Virus record (IMG/VR): IMGVR_UViG_3300027985_001696
Coordinates: 1-28,236 of that record
Source of the DNA: a virus
Length of the DNA: 28,236 bases
Strand: one strand, 5' to 3'
Part shown: positions 5,374-22,006 of the stretch, in pieces
Numbering within the stretch: position 1 is the first letter of the stretch
How the letters are laid out: each line of letters opens with the position of its first letter
The notes under the pieces: generated by a model
Database searches by the model: none
What the model was told of the DNA's origin: nothing
Seen by the model: only the letters and a program-made list of their open reading frames with translations
Translations under genes and position numbers: made by a program

Positions 5374-5536
5374 GCAGCAAGATGATCCCTTAACCGTGAT
5401 CTGCGTCGCCGATTGCACGTTTCCTTGCAGATACAAACAGTTTCCTGCTTCAGGGAAAGTCGATCTAAGAGATCTACAACACACAAACTGGTGCGAAAAG
5501 GAGAATCGCCATGACGATGAAAATAAACAAGCTTGA
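5360..5536 (+). CDS. Small Cys-containing early protein
   Basis: Fifty-eight residues (MKKTKQQDDPLTVICVADCT...), with four cysteines (VICVADCTFPC and NWCEK) that could bind a metal. The start at 5360 overlaps the preceding small gene, and its 3' end overlaps the start of the ATPase gene by 26 bases. The ribosome site is weak (AAGGCG), so expression is probably by coupling. Not recognised. Confidence 0.6.
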   Translation: MKKTKQQDDPLTVICVADCTFPCRYKQFPASGKVDLRDLQHTNWCEKENRHDDENKQA

Positions 5537-6785
5537 AATCGAAAATGTCAAGCGCGTTCATGCGGTACGGCTCGAGCCAACGCAAAACGGGCTGACTATT
5601 ATCGGGGGACGAAATGGGCAGGGGAAAACTTCTGTCCTGGACGCGTTGGCATGGGCGCTGGGTGGAGAACGTTTCCGCCCAAGCGCACCGCAGAACGAAA
5701 GTTCTGTTATTCCTCCAAGTATCCGTGTGGTGCTTAATAATGGCCTGATCGTTGAACGAAAAGGAAAAAACAGCGATCTCAAAGTCATAGATCCAACCGG
5801 CGTAAAATCCGGCCAGCAGCTTCTGAACAGCTTTGTTGAAGAGCTTGCGATTGATCTGCCGCGATTCCTGCATTCTACCGACAAAGAAAAGGCGGATACC
5901 TTATTGCGCATTATCGGAGTCGGCGATCAGCTACTTGAGCTTGATCGACAAGAGACCGATATTTACAATCGGCGCCGCGCAATTGGTCAGATTGCCGACC
6001 AGAAAGAGAAATTTGCGAAGGAGCAAGTTTACTTTCCTGACGCGCCCAAAGAACCTGTTAGCGCATCGGAACTTATTAAACAGCAGCAGGATATTCTTGC
6101 AAAAAACGGAGAAAACCAGCGGAAACGACAGAATCTTTCATATTTTGAAAGCGAAGCGGAAAAACTCCAACGCCAGTTTATGGATATTCAGGAGAAGATC
6201 CGGCTAAACACCATCGACCTGGAGACTGCTCGCAAATCCGCTCTTGATCTTGTCGACGAGAGCACAGAAGAACTTGAAAAAAGCATTCAGGATATTGATG
6301 AAGTTAACCGGAAAGTCAGAATCAACCTTGATAAAGAAAAAGCCGAGGACGATGCGAAGCATTATACCGAACAGTATCAAGCACTGACAACCGATCTTGA
6401 GAGCGTTAGGCAAAAGAAAACGGATCTGCTTACGTCTGCAGATCTACCGCTTCCTGGTCTGACGGTCGACGAGGGAGTGCTTAAATACAACGGCTTTCCA
6501 TGGGACAACATGTCAGGATCAGATCGTCTTAAGGTCGCAACGGCTATCGTACGCAAGCTAAATCCGCAATGTGGTTTTGTATTGCTGGATCAGCTTGAGC
6601 AGATGGATATTCAAACTCTGAATGAATTTGGCTCATGGCTTGAGAGGGAAGGCTTGCAGGCGATTGCGACGCGAGTTTCTACCGGCGGAGAGTGCAGCAT
6701 TATCATTGAGGACGGCTATGTTGTTGGGGATGAAGTATCTGAGCCTGCAACACAACCGGTTGGTTGGAAGGAGGGCACGTTTTAA
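5511..6785 (+). CDS. SbcC/RecF/SMC-like AAA ATPase
   Basis: A 424-residue ABC-type ATPase of the Rad50/SbcC class. The N-terminus has LEIENVKRVHAVRLEP and the Walker A GGRNGQGKT (residues 32-40). A charged coiled coil occupies about 175-300. The C-terminal half-site has the signature-like MSGSDRLKVATA and Walker B-like GFVLLDQLEQMD. Unlike true SbcC it is short, with a reduced coiled coil, as in phage recombination modules where it accompanies a single-strand annealing protein. AAAGGAG precedes the start. It probably acts on phage DNA ends or replication intermediates together with the next two genes, which follow with almost no gap. Confidence 0.88.
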   Translation: MTMKINKLEIENVKRVHAVRLEPTQNGLTIIGGRNGQGKTSVLDALAWALGGERFRPSAPQNESSVIPPSIRVVLNNGLIVERKGKNSDLKVIDPTGVKSGQQLLNSFVEELAIDLPRFLHSTDKEKADTLLRIIGVGDQLLELDRQETDIYNRRRAIGQIADQKEKFAKEQVYFPDAPKEPVSASELIKQQQDILAKNGENQRKRQNLSYFESEAEKLQRQFMDIQEKIRLNTIDLETARKSALDLVDESTEELEKSIQDIDEVNRKVRINLDKEKAEDDAKHYTEQYQALTTDLESVRQKKTDLLTSADLPLPGLTVDEGVLKYNGFPWDNMSGSDRLKVATAIVRKLNPQCGFVLLDQLEQMDIQTLNEFGSWLEREGLQAIATRVSTGGECSIIIEDGYVVGDEVSEPATQPVGWKEGTF

Positions 6786-8404: not shown

Positions 8405-10018
8405 ATGATGCAGGAACGGCCGTATCAAATCGAAGCGAGAAACGCGATTGAAGCGGAATGGGACAAAGGCGTGAAAAGGACGCTCTTGTCCATGGTCACC
8501 GGCGGCGGTAAAACGATTATATTTTCAAAAGTGATCGAGAACCGCGTGCGTCAGAGTGATCGTGTTCTGGTGCTTGCGCATCGCGGCGAGCTGCTTGATC
8601 AAGCGGCCGATAAATTACGCAAATCAACCGGACTTGGATGCGCCGTTGAAAAAGCGGACGAGACATGCTTTGGATCTTGGTTTCGCGTAGTGGTTGGATC
8701 TGTGCAAACACTCATGCGGGAAAATCGGTTGAACCAGTTCCCGCATGATTTCTTCAACACAATCATTGTCGACGAGGCACACCATGTTCTTGCCGACAGC
8801 TATCAGCGCGTTCTGCAGCATTTTGATGAAGCTCGTGTTCTCGGTGTAACCGCAACCCCTGATCGCGGAGATATGCGGAATCTGGGTGAGTATTTCGAAT
8901 CACTTGCATACGAATATACCCTTCCGCGCGCGATCCGCGAAGGATACCTCTGCCCGATCCGCGCTCTTACGATTCCTCTTAAGTTGGATTTATCAGGTGT
9001 CGCAATCCAATCAGGCGACTTTAAAGCTGCAGACCTTGGAACCGCGTTGGATCCATACCTGCAACAAATTGCAGATGAAATGGAACGGAACTGTTCCAAT
9101 CGAAAGACTGTTGTTTTTCTGCCTTTGATCAAAACGAGCCAGAAGTTTTGCGACATTCTCAAGTCTCGGGGGTTCCGTGCAGCTGAAGTCAACGGTGGCA
9201 GCCAGGACCGTGCGGAAATCCTTGAGGCTTTTGATCGCGGCGATTATAACGTGCTTTGCAACTCAATGTTACTCACCGAAGGGTGGGATTGTCCGACGGT
9301 TGACTGTATCGTCGTTTTACGTCCGACGAAGATCCGGAGTTTGTATTGTCAGATGGTGGGTCGAGGCACGCGCCTCGCGGCCGGTAAGGCTGACTTGCTG
9401 CTTTTGGACTTCCTGTGGCACACAGAACGGCACGAACTCTGTCGCCCGGCACATCTGATATGTGAGCATGAAGAAGTCGCTCAGCAAATGACGAAGAACC
9501 TTGAGGAAGCAAGCGCTGCGTGTATTCCAATCAACATTGAAGAAGCACAAAGGCAAGCGTCTGAGGATGTTGTTGCAGCGCGTGAAGAAGCGTTGGCTAA
9601 GCAGCTGGCAGAGATGAAAAGCCGCAAACGAAAACTCGTGGATCCACTGCAGTTCGAAATGTCGATCCAAGCCGAAGACCTATCTGGATATATTCCAACT
9701 TTCGGCTGGGAGTCAGCACCTCCATCCAACAAGCAGATTGAAACACTTGAAAAACTGGGCATCTTTCCGGATGAAATCAACAATGCAGGTAAAGCCGCAA
9801 AGCTACTCGACCGGCTCGAAATGCGGCGCGCTGAAGGGCTTACAACGCCGAAACAAATTCGTTTCCTTGAAGGTAAAGGGTTCCAGCATGTGGGCACTTG
9901 GGAATTTGATCATGCCAAACGTTTAATTGATCGTATTGCAGGCAATGGTTGGCGCGTTCCTTATGAGATTGATCCGAATGTGTACATTCCTAATATTCAG
10001 ACGGGAGAATCATTCTAA
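8405..10018 (+). CDS. DEAH-box superfamily 2 helicase
   Basis: A 537-residue SF2 helicase. Motif I is VTGGGKT (31-37), motif II is VDEAHH with DEAH at 123-126, motif III is VTATP (148-152), and motif VI is QMVGRGTRLA (315-324). A C-terminal part (about 400-537) is specific to phage helicases and carries two copies of a K-Q-x-E/R-x-L-E-x-L/K-G-I/F-type repeat (near 435 and 480), likely small DNA- or protein-binding units. It probably unwinds DNA during phage replication or recombination. It overlaps the next gene by TAATG. Confidence 0.92.
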   Translation: MMQERPYQIEARNAIEAEWDKGVKRTLLSMVTGGGKTIIFSKVIENRVRQSDRVLVLAHRGELLDQAADKLRKSTGLGCAVEKADETCFGSWFRVVVGSVQTLMRENRLNQFPHDFFNTIIVDEAHHVLADSYQRVLQHFDEARVLGVTATPDRGDMRNLGEYFESLAYEYTLPRAIREGYLCPIRALTIPLKLDLSGVAIQSGDFKAADLGTALDPYLQQIADEMERNCSNRKTVVFLPLIKTSQKFCDILKSRGFRAAEVNGGSQDRAEILEAFDRGDYNVLCNSMLLTEGWDCPTVDCIVVLRPTKIRSLYCQMVGRGTRLAAGKADLLLLDFLWHTERHELCRPAHLICEHEEVAQQMTKNLEEASAACIPINIEEAQRQASEDVVAAREEALAKQLAEMKSRKRKLVDPLQFEMSIQAEDLSGYIPTFGWESAPPSNKQIETLEKLGIFPDEINNAGKAAKLLDRLEMRRAEGLTTPKQIRFLEGKGFQHVGTWEFDHAKRLIDRIAGNGWRVPYEIDPNVYIPNIQTGESF

Positions 10019-12231
10019 TGGTTGAACAATATGACGTCCGAGATGTGCTCAAACATATTGATCCCGCTGTGCTGGATTATAACGAGTGGCTGTATGTCGG
10101 TATGGCTTTGAAAGAAGCCGGATATTCCGTTCAGGACTGGGACGCATGGAGCAGCAGAGACACCCGCCGCTATCACTCCGGTGAGTGCGTGAAGAAGTGG
10201 GGGGGGTTCAATGGCGCGACACAACCGATTACTGCCGGCACGATTATTCAGCTTGCGCGTGACCAGGGATGGCAACCGCCGGAATGGCAAGGCGGCCGCG
10301 AACTCGACTGGAATGAAGCGATCGGCGCAAAGGATGATCTGGTTGTTGTCAACGCGAACTGGATTGAAAACCGTGAAGTACATGAACCGGAAAAATGGGA
10401 TCCCGTGAAAGATCTCATTACCTATCTTGAGATCATCTTTGAAGCATCTGACAAGGTTGGTTACGTTACTCGTTCATATGAACATGATGGTCGTTACCTT
10501 CCGGACAAAGGCTGCTACGACCGTACTGCCGGACAATTGATTGATCTGCTTAAGAAATGCAAAGGCGACATTGGAAGCATTCTGGGCGACTACAATCCCA
10601 GCGTTGGTGCGTGGATCCGGTTTAACCCGCTCGATGGAAAAGGGGTAAAGAACGACAATGTGACCGACTTTCGGTTCGCCCTGGTCGAATCCGACGAGAC
10701 GGATATCGACCGCCAGAATGCTATCATCCGCGAGTTGGAGCTCCCTGTTGCCTGCTTGGTGCACAGCGGGAAAAAGAGTCTGCACGCCATCGTACGTGTC
10801 GAGGCGGCTTCCTATGAAGAGTACCGCAAACGCGTCGACTATCTTTACACCGTATGCCAAAAGAACGGTCTTCGCATAGACAGTCAAAATCGCAATCCTT
10901 CGCGGCTTTCACGATTGCCCGGCGTAATGCGATCCGGCAAGAAACAATTCCTCGTTGATACAAACATCGGGAAACGCTCATGGACTGAGTGGTTCGAATG
11001 GATTGAGAGCGTCAATGATGATCTGCCGGAGCCGGAGAGTATTGCGACGGTTTGGGAGAGCCTGCCAGAGCTGGCGCCGCCGCTCATCGATGGAGTTTTA
11101 CGGCAGGGTCACAAGATGCTTTTAGCGGGTCCTAGTAAAGCTGGCAAGAGCTTCGCACTGATTGAGTTATGCTGCGCGATCGCAGAAGGTCGGCAATGGA
11201 TGTCATGGCAGTGCGCCAAAGGCCGCGTTATGTATGTCAATCTCGAGCTGGACAGGGCATCGTGCCTTCATCGATTCAAAGATGTTTATAACGCGCTCGG
11301 TTGGGATCCGCAGAGCATCGGGAATATTGACGTATGGAATTTGCGCGGAAAATCAATTCCAATGGACAAGCTTGCGCCGAAGTTGATTCGCCGGGCAGCG
11401 AAAAAACACTATATCGCAATCGTGATCGATCCGATATACAAGGTGATTACAGGTGACGAAAACAGTGCTGATCAAATGGCAAAATTCTGCAACCAGTTTG
11501 ACCTGGTATGCGCAGAATTAGGCGCCGCGGTGATCTATTGCCATCATCACAGTAAGGGCACACAAGGGCAAAAACGCTCTATGGACCGTGCATCTGGAAG
11601 CGGTGTCTTCGCTCGAGATCCGGACGCACTGCTCGACTACATAGAGCTGGAAACGACAGAGGCACTACTTGCTCAGGAAGAAAACAAAGCTGTCGCCGCG
11701 GCATGCTGTCAGTTCCTTGAAACTGCTGTTCAGAATTGGGATGAACATGTCTCACAGGATGATATGTGTAGCGCACCGTGCATGCTTAAACAAAGCGAAA
11801 AACTTCTGTCGCAGGCTGCATTCAGTGTACTTCGCGAAAAGGTGTTGCAAACCCGCGCTGAGGTTAAGAAAAGAAGTGCATGGCGAATCGATGGGACGCT
11901 TCGTGAATTCCCGAAGTTCAATCCAGTGAACATCTGGTTTACATATCCTGTGCATACAGTTGATACCGTGGGAAGTCTCAGAGACGTTCATGCGGACGGG
12001 GCAACAGTCGGTTACTCATACCTGAAACCGAAGAAGTCAGCCGCCGAAAGAACCGTGGAGAAACTCAAACAGCTTGACAATGCTTATCAAGCAATATCTG
12101 CATTGAATGGCGACGTCACGATAACGGACCTTGTTTCATACATGGGACTTTCGAAAAATACTGTGCGTGACCGGGTCGATCAAAGTGAAAAATATACGCG
12201 CGATGGTGGCAACGTTTATTACAAAATGTAG
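10018..12231 (+). CDS. Primase-helicase: PriCT, AEP primase and RepA-type ATPase
   Basis: A 737-residue replication protein. Residues 1-80 form a PriCT-like domain (DYNEWLYVGMALKEAGYS). Residues 90-330 form an archaeo-eukaryotic-type primase: metal ligands in VESDETD (E224, D226), then HSGKKSLHAIVRV, and D288 in DSQNRNPSRLSRLPGV. Residues 340-560 form an AAA_25/RepA-like helicase with Walker A GPSKAGKS (371-378), Walker B IVIDPIY (D471) and CHHHSKG. A winged-helix-like C-terminus (ITDLVSYMGLSKNTVRDRV) is suited to bind origin DNA. The gene's stop codon touches the first of the GGGGTCAAAA repeats, which supports origin recognition. Confidence 0.93.
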   Translation: MVEQYDVRDVLKHIDPAVLDYNEWLYVGMALKEAGYSVQDWDAWSSRDTRRYHSGECVKKWGGFNGATQPITAGTIIQLARDQGWQPPEWQGGRELDWNEAIGAKDDLVVVNANWIENREVHEPEKWDPVKDLITYLEIIFEASDKVGYVTRSYEHDGRYLPDKGCYDRTAGQLIDLLKKCKGDIGSILGDYNPSVGAWIRFNPLDGKGVKNDNVTDFRFALVESDETDIDRQNAIIRELELPVACLVHSGKKSLHAIVRVEAASYEEYRKRVDYLYTVCQKNGLRIDSQNRNPSRLSRLPGVMRSGKKQFLVDTNIGKRSWTEWFEWIESVNDDLPEPESIATVWESLPELAPPLIDGVLRQGHKMLLAGPSKAGKSFALIELCCAIAEGRQWMSWQCAKGRVMYVNLELDRASCLHRFKDVYNALGWDPQSIGNIDVWNLRGKSIPMDKLAPKLIRRAAKKHYIAIVIDPIYKVITGDENSADQMAKFCNQFDLVCAELGAAVIYCHHHSKGTQGQKRSMDRASGSGVFARDPDALLDYIELETTEALLAQEENKAVAAACCQFLETAVQNWDEHVSQDDMCSAPCMLKQSEKLLSQAAFSVLREKVLQTRAEVKKRSAWRIDGTLREFPKFNPVNIWFTYPVHTVDTVGSLRDVHADGATVGYSYLKPKKSAAERTVEKLKQLDNAYQAISALNGDVTITDLVSYMGLSKNTVRDRVDQSEKYTRDGGNVYYKM

Positions 12232-12452
12232 GGGTCAAAAAGTTCAAAAAGAAAATTGACCCCTGACCCCTAGGGGTCAAAAAACTCAAAAACACGGCTT
12301 TTGGACTTTTGACCCCTGTTCAAGTTTAGGGGTCAAAACGCAAAAAATACGGTTTTTGACCCCTAAATAAATGGCCTGTGGAGGGGTCAAAAACAGGGGT
12401 CAAAAAGTAGATATATATATATCTACTTTTTGACCGCCCCTGATTTGACCGC
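12231..12452. repeat. Origin-like array of GGGGTCAAAA repeats, both orientations
   Basis: No gene is present here. GGGGTCAAAA occurs at 12231-12240, 12273-12282, 12329-12338, 12383-12392 and 12396-12405. The inverse TTTTGACCCC occurs at 12307-12316 and 12354-12363. Shorter inverse copies (TTGACCCC, TGACCCC) are at 12256-12270, and variants TTTTTGACCGCCCC and TTTGACCGCC follow at about 12426-12452. Forward and inverse copies pair into four successive inverted repeats. Placed directly after the primase-helicase and next to an AT-rich palindrome, this fits a replication origin with iterons; a structured RNA or transcription-control array is the alternative. Confidence 0.75.
12398..12435. repeat. 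Perfect 38-bp palindrome with AT core
   Basis: Bases 12398-12416 are the exact reverse complement of 12417-12435, with no central loop. The ends are GGTCAAAAAG and CTTTTTGACC, so the palindrome is built from two facing copies of the array repeat, and its centre is pure alternating A/T (12410-12421). Such sequences can extrude as cruciforms and melt easily, suggesting the unwinding element or initiation site of the origin. Confidence 0.85.
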
Positions 12453-12484
12453 CACCACTCCAATCGCGCGAGAGAGGAACGAAG

Positions 12485-12907
12485 ATGCAAATCGAATTTT
12501 TTATGCCGATGAGTAAAGTACCGACAGCAACCGATCAGGAAAAGAAGATTGGTATTCGCAAAAACGGGAAGCCATACAAGTATCAGCCCGCAGAGCTCAA
12601 GGACGCCGAAGCAATGCTCGCCGCACACTTATCGCGTCACGTACCGATTCAACCATATGAAACTGGTGTGAGACTTATTGTGAAGTGGTGCTTTCCGCGA
12701 GGCGACCATGCTGATGGTGAATATCGGGTTACAGCGCCGGATACTGACAATCTGCAAAAGATGCTTAAGGACGTCATGTCGAAGCTTGGGTTCTGGAAAA
12801 ACGATGCATTGGTTGCATCAGAATTCTGTGAAAAGTTTTGGGCAGAGATACCAGGCATCTATATCAAAATTCAGTCACTTAATGAGATCGGCGGTGAACG
12901 TTCATGA
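12485..12907 (+). CDS. rusA: RusA-type Holliday junction resolvase
   Basis: A 140-residue endonuclease of the RusA family that cuts four-way junctions left by recombination and replication. The family motif is seen as APDTDNLQKMLKDVMSKLGF (84-103) followed by WKNDALV, giving the acidic cluster D86, D88, D96 and D107 and the lysine K95. Length is typical for the family. Its start lies 32 bases after the repeat/palindrome block, with GAGAGGA as ribosome site. It overlaps the next gene by ATGA. Confidence 0.92.
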   Translation: MQIEFFMPMSKVPTATDQEKKIGIRKNGKPYKYQPAELKDAEAMLAAHLSRHVPIQPYETGVRLIVKWCFPRGDHADGEYRVTAPDTDNLQKMLKDVMSKLGFWKNDALVASEFCEKFWAEIPGIYIKIQSLNEIGGERS

Positions 12908-13424: not shown

Positions 13425-14510
13425 ATGAAGACTAGATATACACCGGAAAAATTGAAAGAAGATGAATACAAAATAGCTGTATTCCGGCAAAAACAATCAT
13501 TACCCTACGAAGCAAAAGTATATCACGCAGAACGTCGTGCAAAAGAATTCTATGATGAACTTGATGGCCATTGCCATGTATCAGTAGGGGGGTTGGATAG
13601 CATTACACTCTTAATATTTCTGCGGAGTATCGGCATTGATGTCCCTGCTATTTCCGTTTCAACGCTGGAAGATAAAAGCATACAGAAAATTCATAAACAA
13701 CTCGGCATCATAGAACTGAAACCATTAATGAGCAAGGTTGAAGTGTTGCGCGAATTTGGATACCCGGTTTTATCAAAAGAAACTGCTGGTAAGATTGCAC
13801 TTTTGCAAAATGCAAATAGCAAAAACAAGGTTGTTAGACATGCAATTATCACGGGGGAGACTGGCGAGTATGGCGGGAACAGGAAAAACACTCGTATGAA
13901 AATGTCGCAAAAGTGGTTAGAAAAGTTTGGCGGATCTGACCCAGAAGGGGAAGCACTAGGATATCAAAAAGCGCCTTTTAAAGTTTCTGACAAGTGTTGT
14001 TATTATCTAAAGGAAAAACCTTGTGACGATTATGCTCGAGCAAACCATAGTTATCCATATCTCGGATTGATGGCGTCAGAACATGGACGACGAGAGAAAG
14101 CACTTATGACGAATGGGTGCAACTATTTCGGTGAAAATACGAAACGTAGTGCACCATTTGCGATATTTGAGAGACAAGATATTCTTCAACTTGCGCTTGA
14201 TCTCAATGTCTCGGTTCCTGAGATTTATGGGGAAATTGTACGTGAGCCTGCTGGCATATTAAGAACAACTGGCGCACAACGCACTGGATGTTCGATGTGT
14301 GGCTTCGGAATACATCTTGAATCGCGTCCACATCGTTTCGACCAACTCAGACAGAAAAATTTAAAAGAATGGGAATTCTGGATGTTTGACATGGGGTGGG
14401 GCAAGGTTCTTGATTACATAGGTGTCGGATGGAAAGACGAGCAACTGAGTCTTGATTTAAACGCTGATGAAGAGCCCAAAGGAGATTTTTATGCCAAAGC
14501 AATACGGTGA
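13425..14510 (+). CDS. PAPS-reductase/DndC-like family protein with altered PP-loop
   Basis: A 361-residue protein of the adenine-nucleotide alpha-hydrolase (PP-loop) superfamily. The PP-loop position reads VSVGGLDS (52-59) in place of SGGxDS with Ser and Lys, so the first Ser is Val and the Lys is Leu. Cysteines include KCCYYLKEKPC (around 190) and GCSMCGFG (C289, C292), the latter followed by HLESRPHRFDQL, the usual C-terminal signature of phage PAPS-reductase-like proteins and a possible Fe-S or metal site. The gene is visibly more AT-rich than its neighbours. Substrate is unknown; DNA or nucleotide modification is a possible role. Confidence 0.85.
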   Translation: MKTRYTPEKLKEDEYKIAVFRQKQSLPYEAKVYHAERRAKEFYDELDGHCHVSVGGLDSITLLIFLRSIGIDVPAISVSTLEDKSIQKIHKQLGIIELKPLMSKVEVLREFGYPVLSKETAGKIALLQNANSKNKVVRHAIITGETGEYGGNRKNTRMKMSQKWLEKFGGSDPEGEALGYQKAPFKVSDKCCYYLKEKPCDDYARANHSYPYLGLMASEHGRREKALMTNGCNYFGENTKRSAPFAIFERQDILQLALDLNVSVPEIYGEIVREPAGILRTTGAQRTGCSMCGFGIHLESRPHRFDQLRQKNLKEWEFWMFDMGWGKVLDYIGVGWKDEQLSLDLNADEEPKGDFYAKAIR

Positions 14511-21904: not shown

Positions 21905-22006
21905 TACCCAAATTGCCAACCATGTCGGCGTTTAAATGCATGGACTGCCCCAGGCGCGGAGTGGCCGCGCGTTTATAAGTTAAATCGCGGGTGGGTAAGG
22001 AACAAT
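21905..22006 (+). other. Short intergenic stretch before the scaffold gene
   Basis: About 100 bases without a gene. A small stem GCGCGG (21954-21959) with CCGCGC (21965-21970) is present, followed by GTTTATAAGTT. No clear promoter is seen, although one would be expected after the terminator at 21873-21904. A frame upstream in phase with the scaffold has no ribosome site. Confidence 0.35.

Follow-up and report, generated by a model that had tools for sequence, protein, structure and literature searches.

A candidate replication origin of inverted repeats next to a phage primase-helicase gene, with repeats that covary with the C-terminal winged helix of the protein

The sequence analysed here, referred to as the window, is a stretch of viral DNA of 28,236 nt in which a primase-helicase gene (10018-12231, plus strand) is followed by an array of short repeats and by a gene for a RusA-like Holliday junction resolvase (12485-12907, plus strand). 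The primase-helicase comprises a PriCT_2 domain (residues 8-80), a probable AEP primase region, a RepA-like hexameric helicase (AAA_25, residues 353-515) and a C-terminal winged helix. It corresponds over its full length to the phage DNA primase profile PHROG 2597 (E 0, 1168.8 bits, residues 3-734 of 737), and a search against NCBIfam gave no match. RSF1010 RepA was the only solved sequence relative of the helicase part (phmmer, 1g8y, E 1.1e-7), and it also ranked first when the fold of the complete protein model was compared (Foldseek, 1nlf, E 7.2e-9). Assignment of the N-terminal region as an AEP primase is probable, on weak profile evidence: Pfam DNA_primase_S was matched in 6 of 26 proteins with a best E of 0.032. 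The depositor of phage FP_Lugh labelled the counterpart gene an AEP primase-helicase. A profile search of this part against the PDB returned two chance-level matches only, and none to RepB'. The winged-helix domain (12040-12222, plus strand, residues 675-735) was delimited in AlphaFold models, and its predicted recognition helix (12154-12183, plus strand, residues 713-722) carries N714 (12157-12159) and D718 (12169-12171). Its model resembled DtxR/IdeR/MntR in the PDB (VIA second look, Z 9.9, rmsd 1.4 over 60 residues) and reached Foldseek E values no better than 0.026; the predicted fold is a common one, and no family assignment was drawn from these structure matches.

Other parts of the window were also inspected. 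A gene for an SbcC/RecF-like ATPase (phrog_1499, 5511-6785) lies upstream of a Sak4-like gene, and a PAPS-reductase-like gene (phrog_424, 13425-14510) is found downstream of rusA. A GP20-a RNA (RF02991, 67 bits), which belongs to an Rfam cis-regulatory family, was detected at 21911-22006. By eye, a reading frame on the minus strand (299-1759) resembles a large serine recombinase, suggesting a temperate phage, and late-gene-like reading frames downstream suggest that the window derives from a phage rather than from a satellite.

The array (12231-12453) fills the gap of 220 nt between the primase-helicase and rusA-like genes. Seven exact copies of GGGGTCAAAA are present in the window, five forward (starting at 12231, 12273, 12329, 12383 and 12396) and two reverse (12307-12316 and 12354-12363), with shorter copies between them; none lies outside the array in the 28,236 nt. 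Allowing up to one mismatch added just two matches, at 12428 within the array and at 1340, and the resulting nine compare with 1.96 expected, a number reached in 0 of 100 shuffles. The sites are organised into four successive inverted repeats. The first (12229-12272) contains the first site (12231-12240), whose initial G is shared with the TAG stop codon of the primase-helicase (12229-12231). The second (12271-12318) pairs sites 12273-12282 (forward) and 12307-12316 (reverse), and the third (12325-12367) pairs 12329-12338 (forward) and 12354-12363 (reverse). The fourth is a long terminal hairpin of 81 nt (12378-12458) with sites at 12383 and 12396 (forward) and at 12428 and 12444 (reverse), and with additional bases on its 3' arm. 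Its tip is formed by a perfect AT-rich palindrome of 38 nt (12398-12435), a candidate melting site that is flanked on both sides by very uneven sets of sites. As single-stranded DNA, the four inverted repeats folded with z-scores of -3.3, -6.3, -4.8 and -10.6, the last computed on 12374-12460 (-29.8 kcal/mol). The sequence-only reading had described at least seven ten-base copies, four successive inverted repeats and an overlap with the stop codon, and all three were recovered in the window. No turn of the cumulative GC skew of the window was seen at the array, a measure that says little here because beyond 3.5 kb almost every gene points the same way. Directly past the array stands GCGCGAGAG (12466-12474), and the similar strings CGCGAGA or CGCGTGAGA were noticed by eye past the array in several relatives.

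A collection of 177 primase-gene loci, window included, was assembled from IMG/VR, genome contigs and twelve annotated phage records. After removal of near-duplicates (judged by the first 150 nt downstream), loci without a stop codon and loci with less than 150 nt downstream, 158 were kept; protein comparisons were based on 157, short proteins being dropped too, and hairpin tests on 151, for which 300-330 nt downstream were required. Hosts of these PHROG 2597 phages and prophages were Streptococcus, Enterococcus, Paenibacillus, Faecalibacterium, Flavonifractor and many uncultured Firmicutes. The arrays of the relatives stand directly 3' of the primase gene, and their repeat sequences differ widely. 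The best 8-mer occurred at least three times within 303 nt past the stop codon in 135 of 158 loci, and coding DNA taken from these loci as a control gave 3 of 158; its repetition exceeded all 100 dinucleotide shuffles in 96 of 158, and both orientations were represented in 108 of 158. Among the 104 loci with a classified repeat, site density was 24.7 per kb past the stop codon versus 0.86 per kb elsewhere, a contrast due partly to selection, since the class was picked from the same stretch. The sequence-only reading had made its case depend on the presence of repeats next to homologous primases, and they are indeed kept there. Its claim of alternating orientation held in the window in the form of the four inverted repeats; as a strict rule for the family it was only weakly above random order, with 399 of 712 neighbouring site pairs alternating (362 expected) and 313 direct.

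Repeat sharing between loci was correlated with winged-helix identity (Spearman 0.39; partial correlation given the core 0.385, 0 of 200 permutations, 157 loci), as opposed to a partial correlation of 0.048 with core identity (13 of 200 permutations, 157 loci). Repeat sequence thus tracks the C-terminal winged helix of the primase-helicase rather than its remaining parts. When 447 alignment columns were scanned without guidance, 390 from the core and 57 from the C-terminal part, residues 714 (r 0.391) and 718 (r 0.309) came first; the best core column reached 0.142 and the permutation maximum was 0.109. Both residues are placed by the AlphaFold models on the predicted recognition helix, one helical turn apart. 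Residue N714 was associated with GTCAAA (12 of 15 loci versus 1 of 142 others), K/R714+R718 with GACAAA (13 of 16 versus 0 of 141), D714+R718 with CGCAAA (6 of 7 versus 2 of 150), K714+N/S718 with GGGAAA (48 of 64 versus 10 of 93) and R714+D/G718 with GGGGAA (24 of 35 versus 1 of 122). Misses in the same order amounted to 3/15, 3/16, 1/7, 16/64 (loci without at least three copies of GGGAAA) and 11/35, and 53 of 157 loci fell outside all five hexamer classes. The Fisher tests of these associations ignore relatedness, which was addressed by phylogenetically independent pairs on a core tree displaying 61 changes of repeat class and 54 of residue 714. Among such pairs differing in both residues and repeats, on average 8.7, 7.3, 6.0, 15.1 and 9.4 changed jointly for the five classes as listed, and 0, 0, 0, 1.1 and 0 changed oppositely. 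Residues 714 and 718 thus seem to constitute a rough code for the repeat sequence.

The winged helix and the array also switch jointly, as one cassette, between otherwise near-identical phages. In seven phage pairs, not all independent as some share a member, DNA similarity ends 235-278 nt before the stop codon and returns 221-572 nt after it, flanked by identities of 83-94% on the left and 72-91% on the right; one of the seven still shares a 60-nt segment of the winged-helix region at 77% identity. Where the core was at least 82% identical and the winged helix below 50%, the repeat class was the same in 2 of 30 pairs, versus 28 of 31 where the core was below 66% and the winged helix at least 62% identical (pairs with an unclassified member omitted, from 45 and 38 pairs in all).

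Searches were also performed in the opposite direction, by scanning IMG/VR for inverted repeat pairs regardless of genes. Among the matches listed, which comprised 225 loci, a primase of the PHROG 2597 family was encountered in 12; in all 12 the repeats adjoin the primase end (pattern start -42 to +143 nt from the stop codon) and the expected 714/718 residues are present. Nine of these listed primases, six with N714 and three with K714+R718, were on contigs outside those from which the code was derived. One of the repeat-found primases (L244) is only 37% identical overall to the protein of the window, yet it shares with the window both the SKNT helix and the repeats. One unrelated contig (L184) was returned by the strict pattern AGGGGTCAAAA-N8-34-TTTTGACCCCT, and the looser GGGGTCAA pattern at least 120 stretches, most probably due mostly to chance. 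From the strict and looser patterns together, 12 of 121 loci had at least four sites in 400 nt among the matches listed. Six of those 12 lie beside a PHROG 2597-family primase. Another, L301, is a plain tandem repeat. Loci L245 (6627-6806) and L212 (5470-5526) contain GGGGTCAA arrays inside lambda-O-like reading frames, whose helices (SRNSV and SKNTV, respectively) resemble SKNTV of the window, possibly through convergent recognition. The remaining three were L184, L258 and L259; in L184 (2596-2670), dense GGGGTCAAAA inverted repeats were seen by eye after a different gene, beside DnaA-box-like strings, and may represent another origin, separate from the PHROG 2597 primase. The AGACGCAAA pair scan yielded 11 loci with a primase beside none of them, so that class D714+R718 is without blind confirmation, and the two blind matches of GCGGGGAA were contigs already used in deriving the code (L050 and L085).

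On the basis of these comparisons, it is very probable that the array is the replication origin of the phage and that the primase-helicase binds its repeats through the winged helix. The sequence-only reading had put forward a candidate origin bound by this C-terminal domain, a proposal that now finds strong support in the covariation of winged helix and repeats, residues 714/718, the cassette exchange and the repeat-only scans. The same binding logic would also suit an operator, which needs no replication: the winged helix might bind the array, located between two co-directional genes, in order to control rusA and later genes or to shut the replication operon, the origin being elsewhere. This we regard as unlikely. 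No sigma-70-like promoter was found in 12000-12700 (0.8 expected), the many sites and the long terminal hairpin exceed usual operators, the winged helix is carried by a primase-helicase, and the origins of SaPI, PICI, pRN1 and SCC, as far as the available accounts describe them, occupy the same place.

The terminal hairpin of the window is the positional equivalent of a GTC...GAC hairpin found in 109 of 151 loci versus 6 of 151 coding controls (median length 65 nt, median start 191 nt past the stop codon). In most relatives this hairpin is separate from the array and 3' of it; at the N714 loci that were viewed by eye (the window, L158, L161, L168 and L181), the stem is formed by the repeats themselves. 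In 73 of 96 distinct cases, the inner stem, which played no part in finding the hairpin, comprised at least seven perfect pairs (median 8 versus 4.3 when shuffled). Perfect palindromes with arms of at least 8 nt, some of them parts of arrays, were present in 88 of 151 loci versus 7 of 151 coding controls and 5 of 151 shuffles. A metric based on the largest number of pairs gave the same median (34 bp) in the coding control and was for this reason replaced by the outer-arm and inner-stem tests. A looser hairpin criterion (144 of 151 versus 19 coding and 20 shuffled) can be satisfied by the array alone, and the hairpin claim therefore rests on the 109 of 151 loci and the inner-stem tests. RNAalifold found 0 pairs in 50 terminal hairpins, apparently because their arms are out of register in the sequence alignment, and no covariation is claimed from this result.

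Once transcribed, strong inverted repeats such as these could serve as terminators or attenuators, or could stabilise the RNA. Such a role is very unlikely, as the terminator-like sites of the array all lie on the minus strand, on which no gene is expected to end, the repeat sequence tracks a DNA-binding helix, and no Rfam family was found at the array. Moreover, terminal hairpins are less stable as RNA of the transcript strand (mean difference 1.35 kcal/mol, p 3e-4), with 77 G-U pairs on that strand versus 141 on the other, a deficit which disfavours an RNA role. This bias points tentatively to a hairpin formed in DNA, possibly by the opposite strand, and could also be caused by base composition. 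The first inspection had envisaged a series of hairpins, in single strands or in RNA; of these, only the terminal one looks conserved as a structural element, and a role in operon RNA is disfavoured. That the array is a REP-like or transposon-derived dispersed repeat, or arose by chance or through misassembly, as short inverted repeats in an intergenic gap may suggest, is hardly credible given that no exact copy occurs elsewhere in the window, that genomes of phage isolates and of bacteria have arrays of the same design at this position, and that the closest relative (L024) keeps the arrangement of the window with changed spacers.

Comparison of the loci thus provides the elements of a putative origin: the repeats and their position, the pairing of repeat and recognition helix, the joint exchange of domain and array, and the terminal hairpin in most relatives. 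Several copies of the primase-helicase would dock via their winged helices on the inverted site pairs, and this docking may nucleate the hexameric, RepA-like helicase on the AT-rich palindrome. The opened DNA would expose the terminal hairpin, at which the fused primase domain may prime synthesis for host polymerases, by analogy with ssiA/ssiB of RSF1010. Helicase loading at the palindrome and priming at the hairpin are proposed from what the available parts of reports on RSF1010, pRN1 and P4 describe (PMC4234260, PMC4538821).

A wider proposition, on which we are evenly divided, is that a widespread family of Firmicutes phages carries an exchangeable cassette for origin specificity (winged helix, repeats and terminal hairpin), in which residues 714/718 largely predict the repeats, and that switching under selection from competing phages, satellites or origin-targeting nucleases has produced many replication 'incompatibility groups'. 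If so, these groups could be predicted from sequence. The drivers of origin switching can now be asked about at scale, including satellites, superinfection, origin-directed nucleases and decoy origins such as PER, an origin-like element described in the available text as protecting Streptococcus thermophilus from phage (PMC6356513). A likely origin is placed for a family of phages and prophages that is large and has been little studied, and the prediction from residue to base is falsifiable with a small protein domain and a short DNA.

Several known systems share features with this module. In the lambda-O type, iterons lie inside the initiator reading frame, whereas the array of the window follows the stop codon with one base in common; the lambda iterons are themselves inverted or palindromic initiator sites. 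Phage P4 possesses a helicase of a family different from that of the window, and a separate crr site. Its alpha protein is likewise a single polypeptide that acts as primase and helicase and binds origin repeats through a winged helix, with a primase of another type (PMC4234260). The pRN1 and Bordetella phage BIP-1 proteins also combine primase, helicase and C-terminal winged helix, PriCT_2 being present in that of BIP-1, and their origins lie 3' of the gene with a structure conserved without conserved sequence; in the sections available they differ by an SF3 helicase and a stem-loop without iterons, as opposed to an iteron array plus hairpin (PMC4234260). RSF1010 oriV has initiator-read repeats, a RepA helicase, matched in the window, and hairpins that serve as primase sites, but distributes over three proteins (RepA, RepB' and RepC) what is one chain in the window, where a RepB' match is absent by PDB profile (PMC4538821, PMC4234260).

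In Vibrio PLE satellites, the DNA-binding domain of a RepA_N initiator and the origin covary and swap jointly while the remainder of the gene is conserved, with an origin-directed nuclease as the suspected driver (PMC8263062). This covariation and joint swapping are as in the PHROG 2597 phages, so that an exchange reported for a handful of satellites is now extended to a broad phage family. PLE differ in the N-terminal position of the RepA_N binding domain, in having few variants and in being satellites rather than a phage family, and the text available describes no residue code (PMC8263062). The array had been called unusual in form on the ground that iterons are normally direct; inverted site pairs are present, but inverted or palindromic initiator sites were already known, such as the semi-palindromic iterons of PLE (PMC8263062). 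The excerpts available from PMC7157519 and PMC5601072 contained no further case, and no description of such an origin type for the PHROG 2597 family was found in the open-access literature, to which the search was largely confined.

A close layout is that of SaPI and PICI, whose origins are directly 3' of the initiator gene, so that short repeats immediately follow this gene in both (PMC7581432, PMC6092414). According to the parts of these sources at hand, the initiator recognises the repeats through its C-terminal domain, a role for which the winged helix of the phages is a candidate in view of its strong covariation with the repeats. A primase is sometimes fused to the initiator and an AT-rich part is present, likewise in the module of the window. 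PICI origins are described as two iteron sets flanking an AT-rich region, and the window has inverted site pairs ending in a terminal hairpin; the RSF1010-RepA-like helicase of the window is a further difference in what appears a functionally similar layout. The array may be viewed as a new variant on origins already known 3' of initiator genes (SaPI/PICI and pRN1). What is new is the combination of array and hairpin beside a RepA-like primase-helicase gene, a code made up of two residues, and cassette exchange across a broad family of phages.
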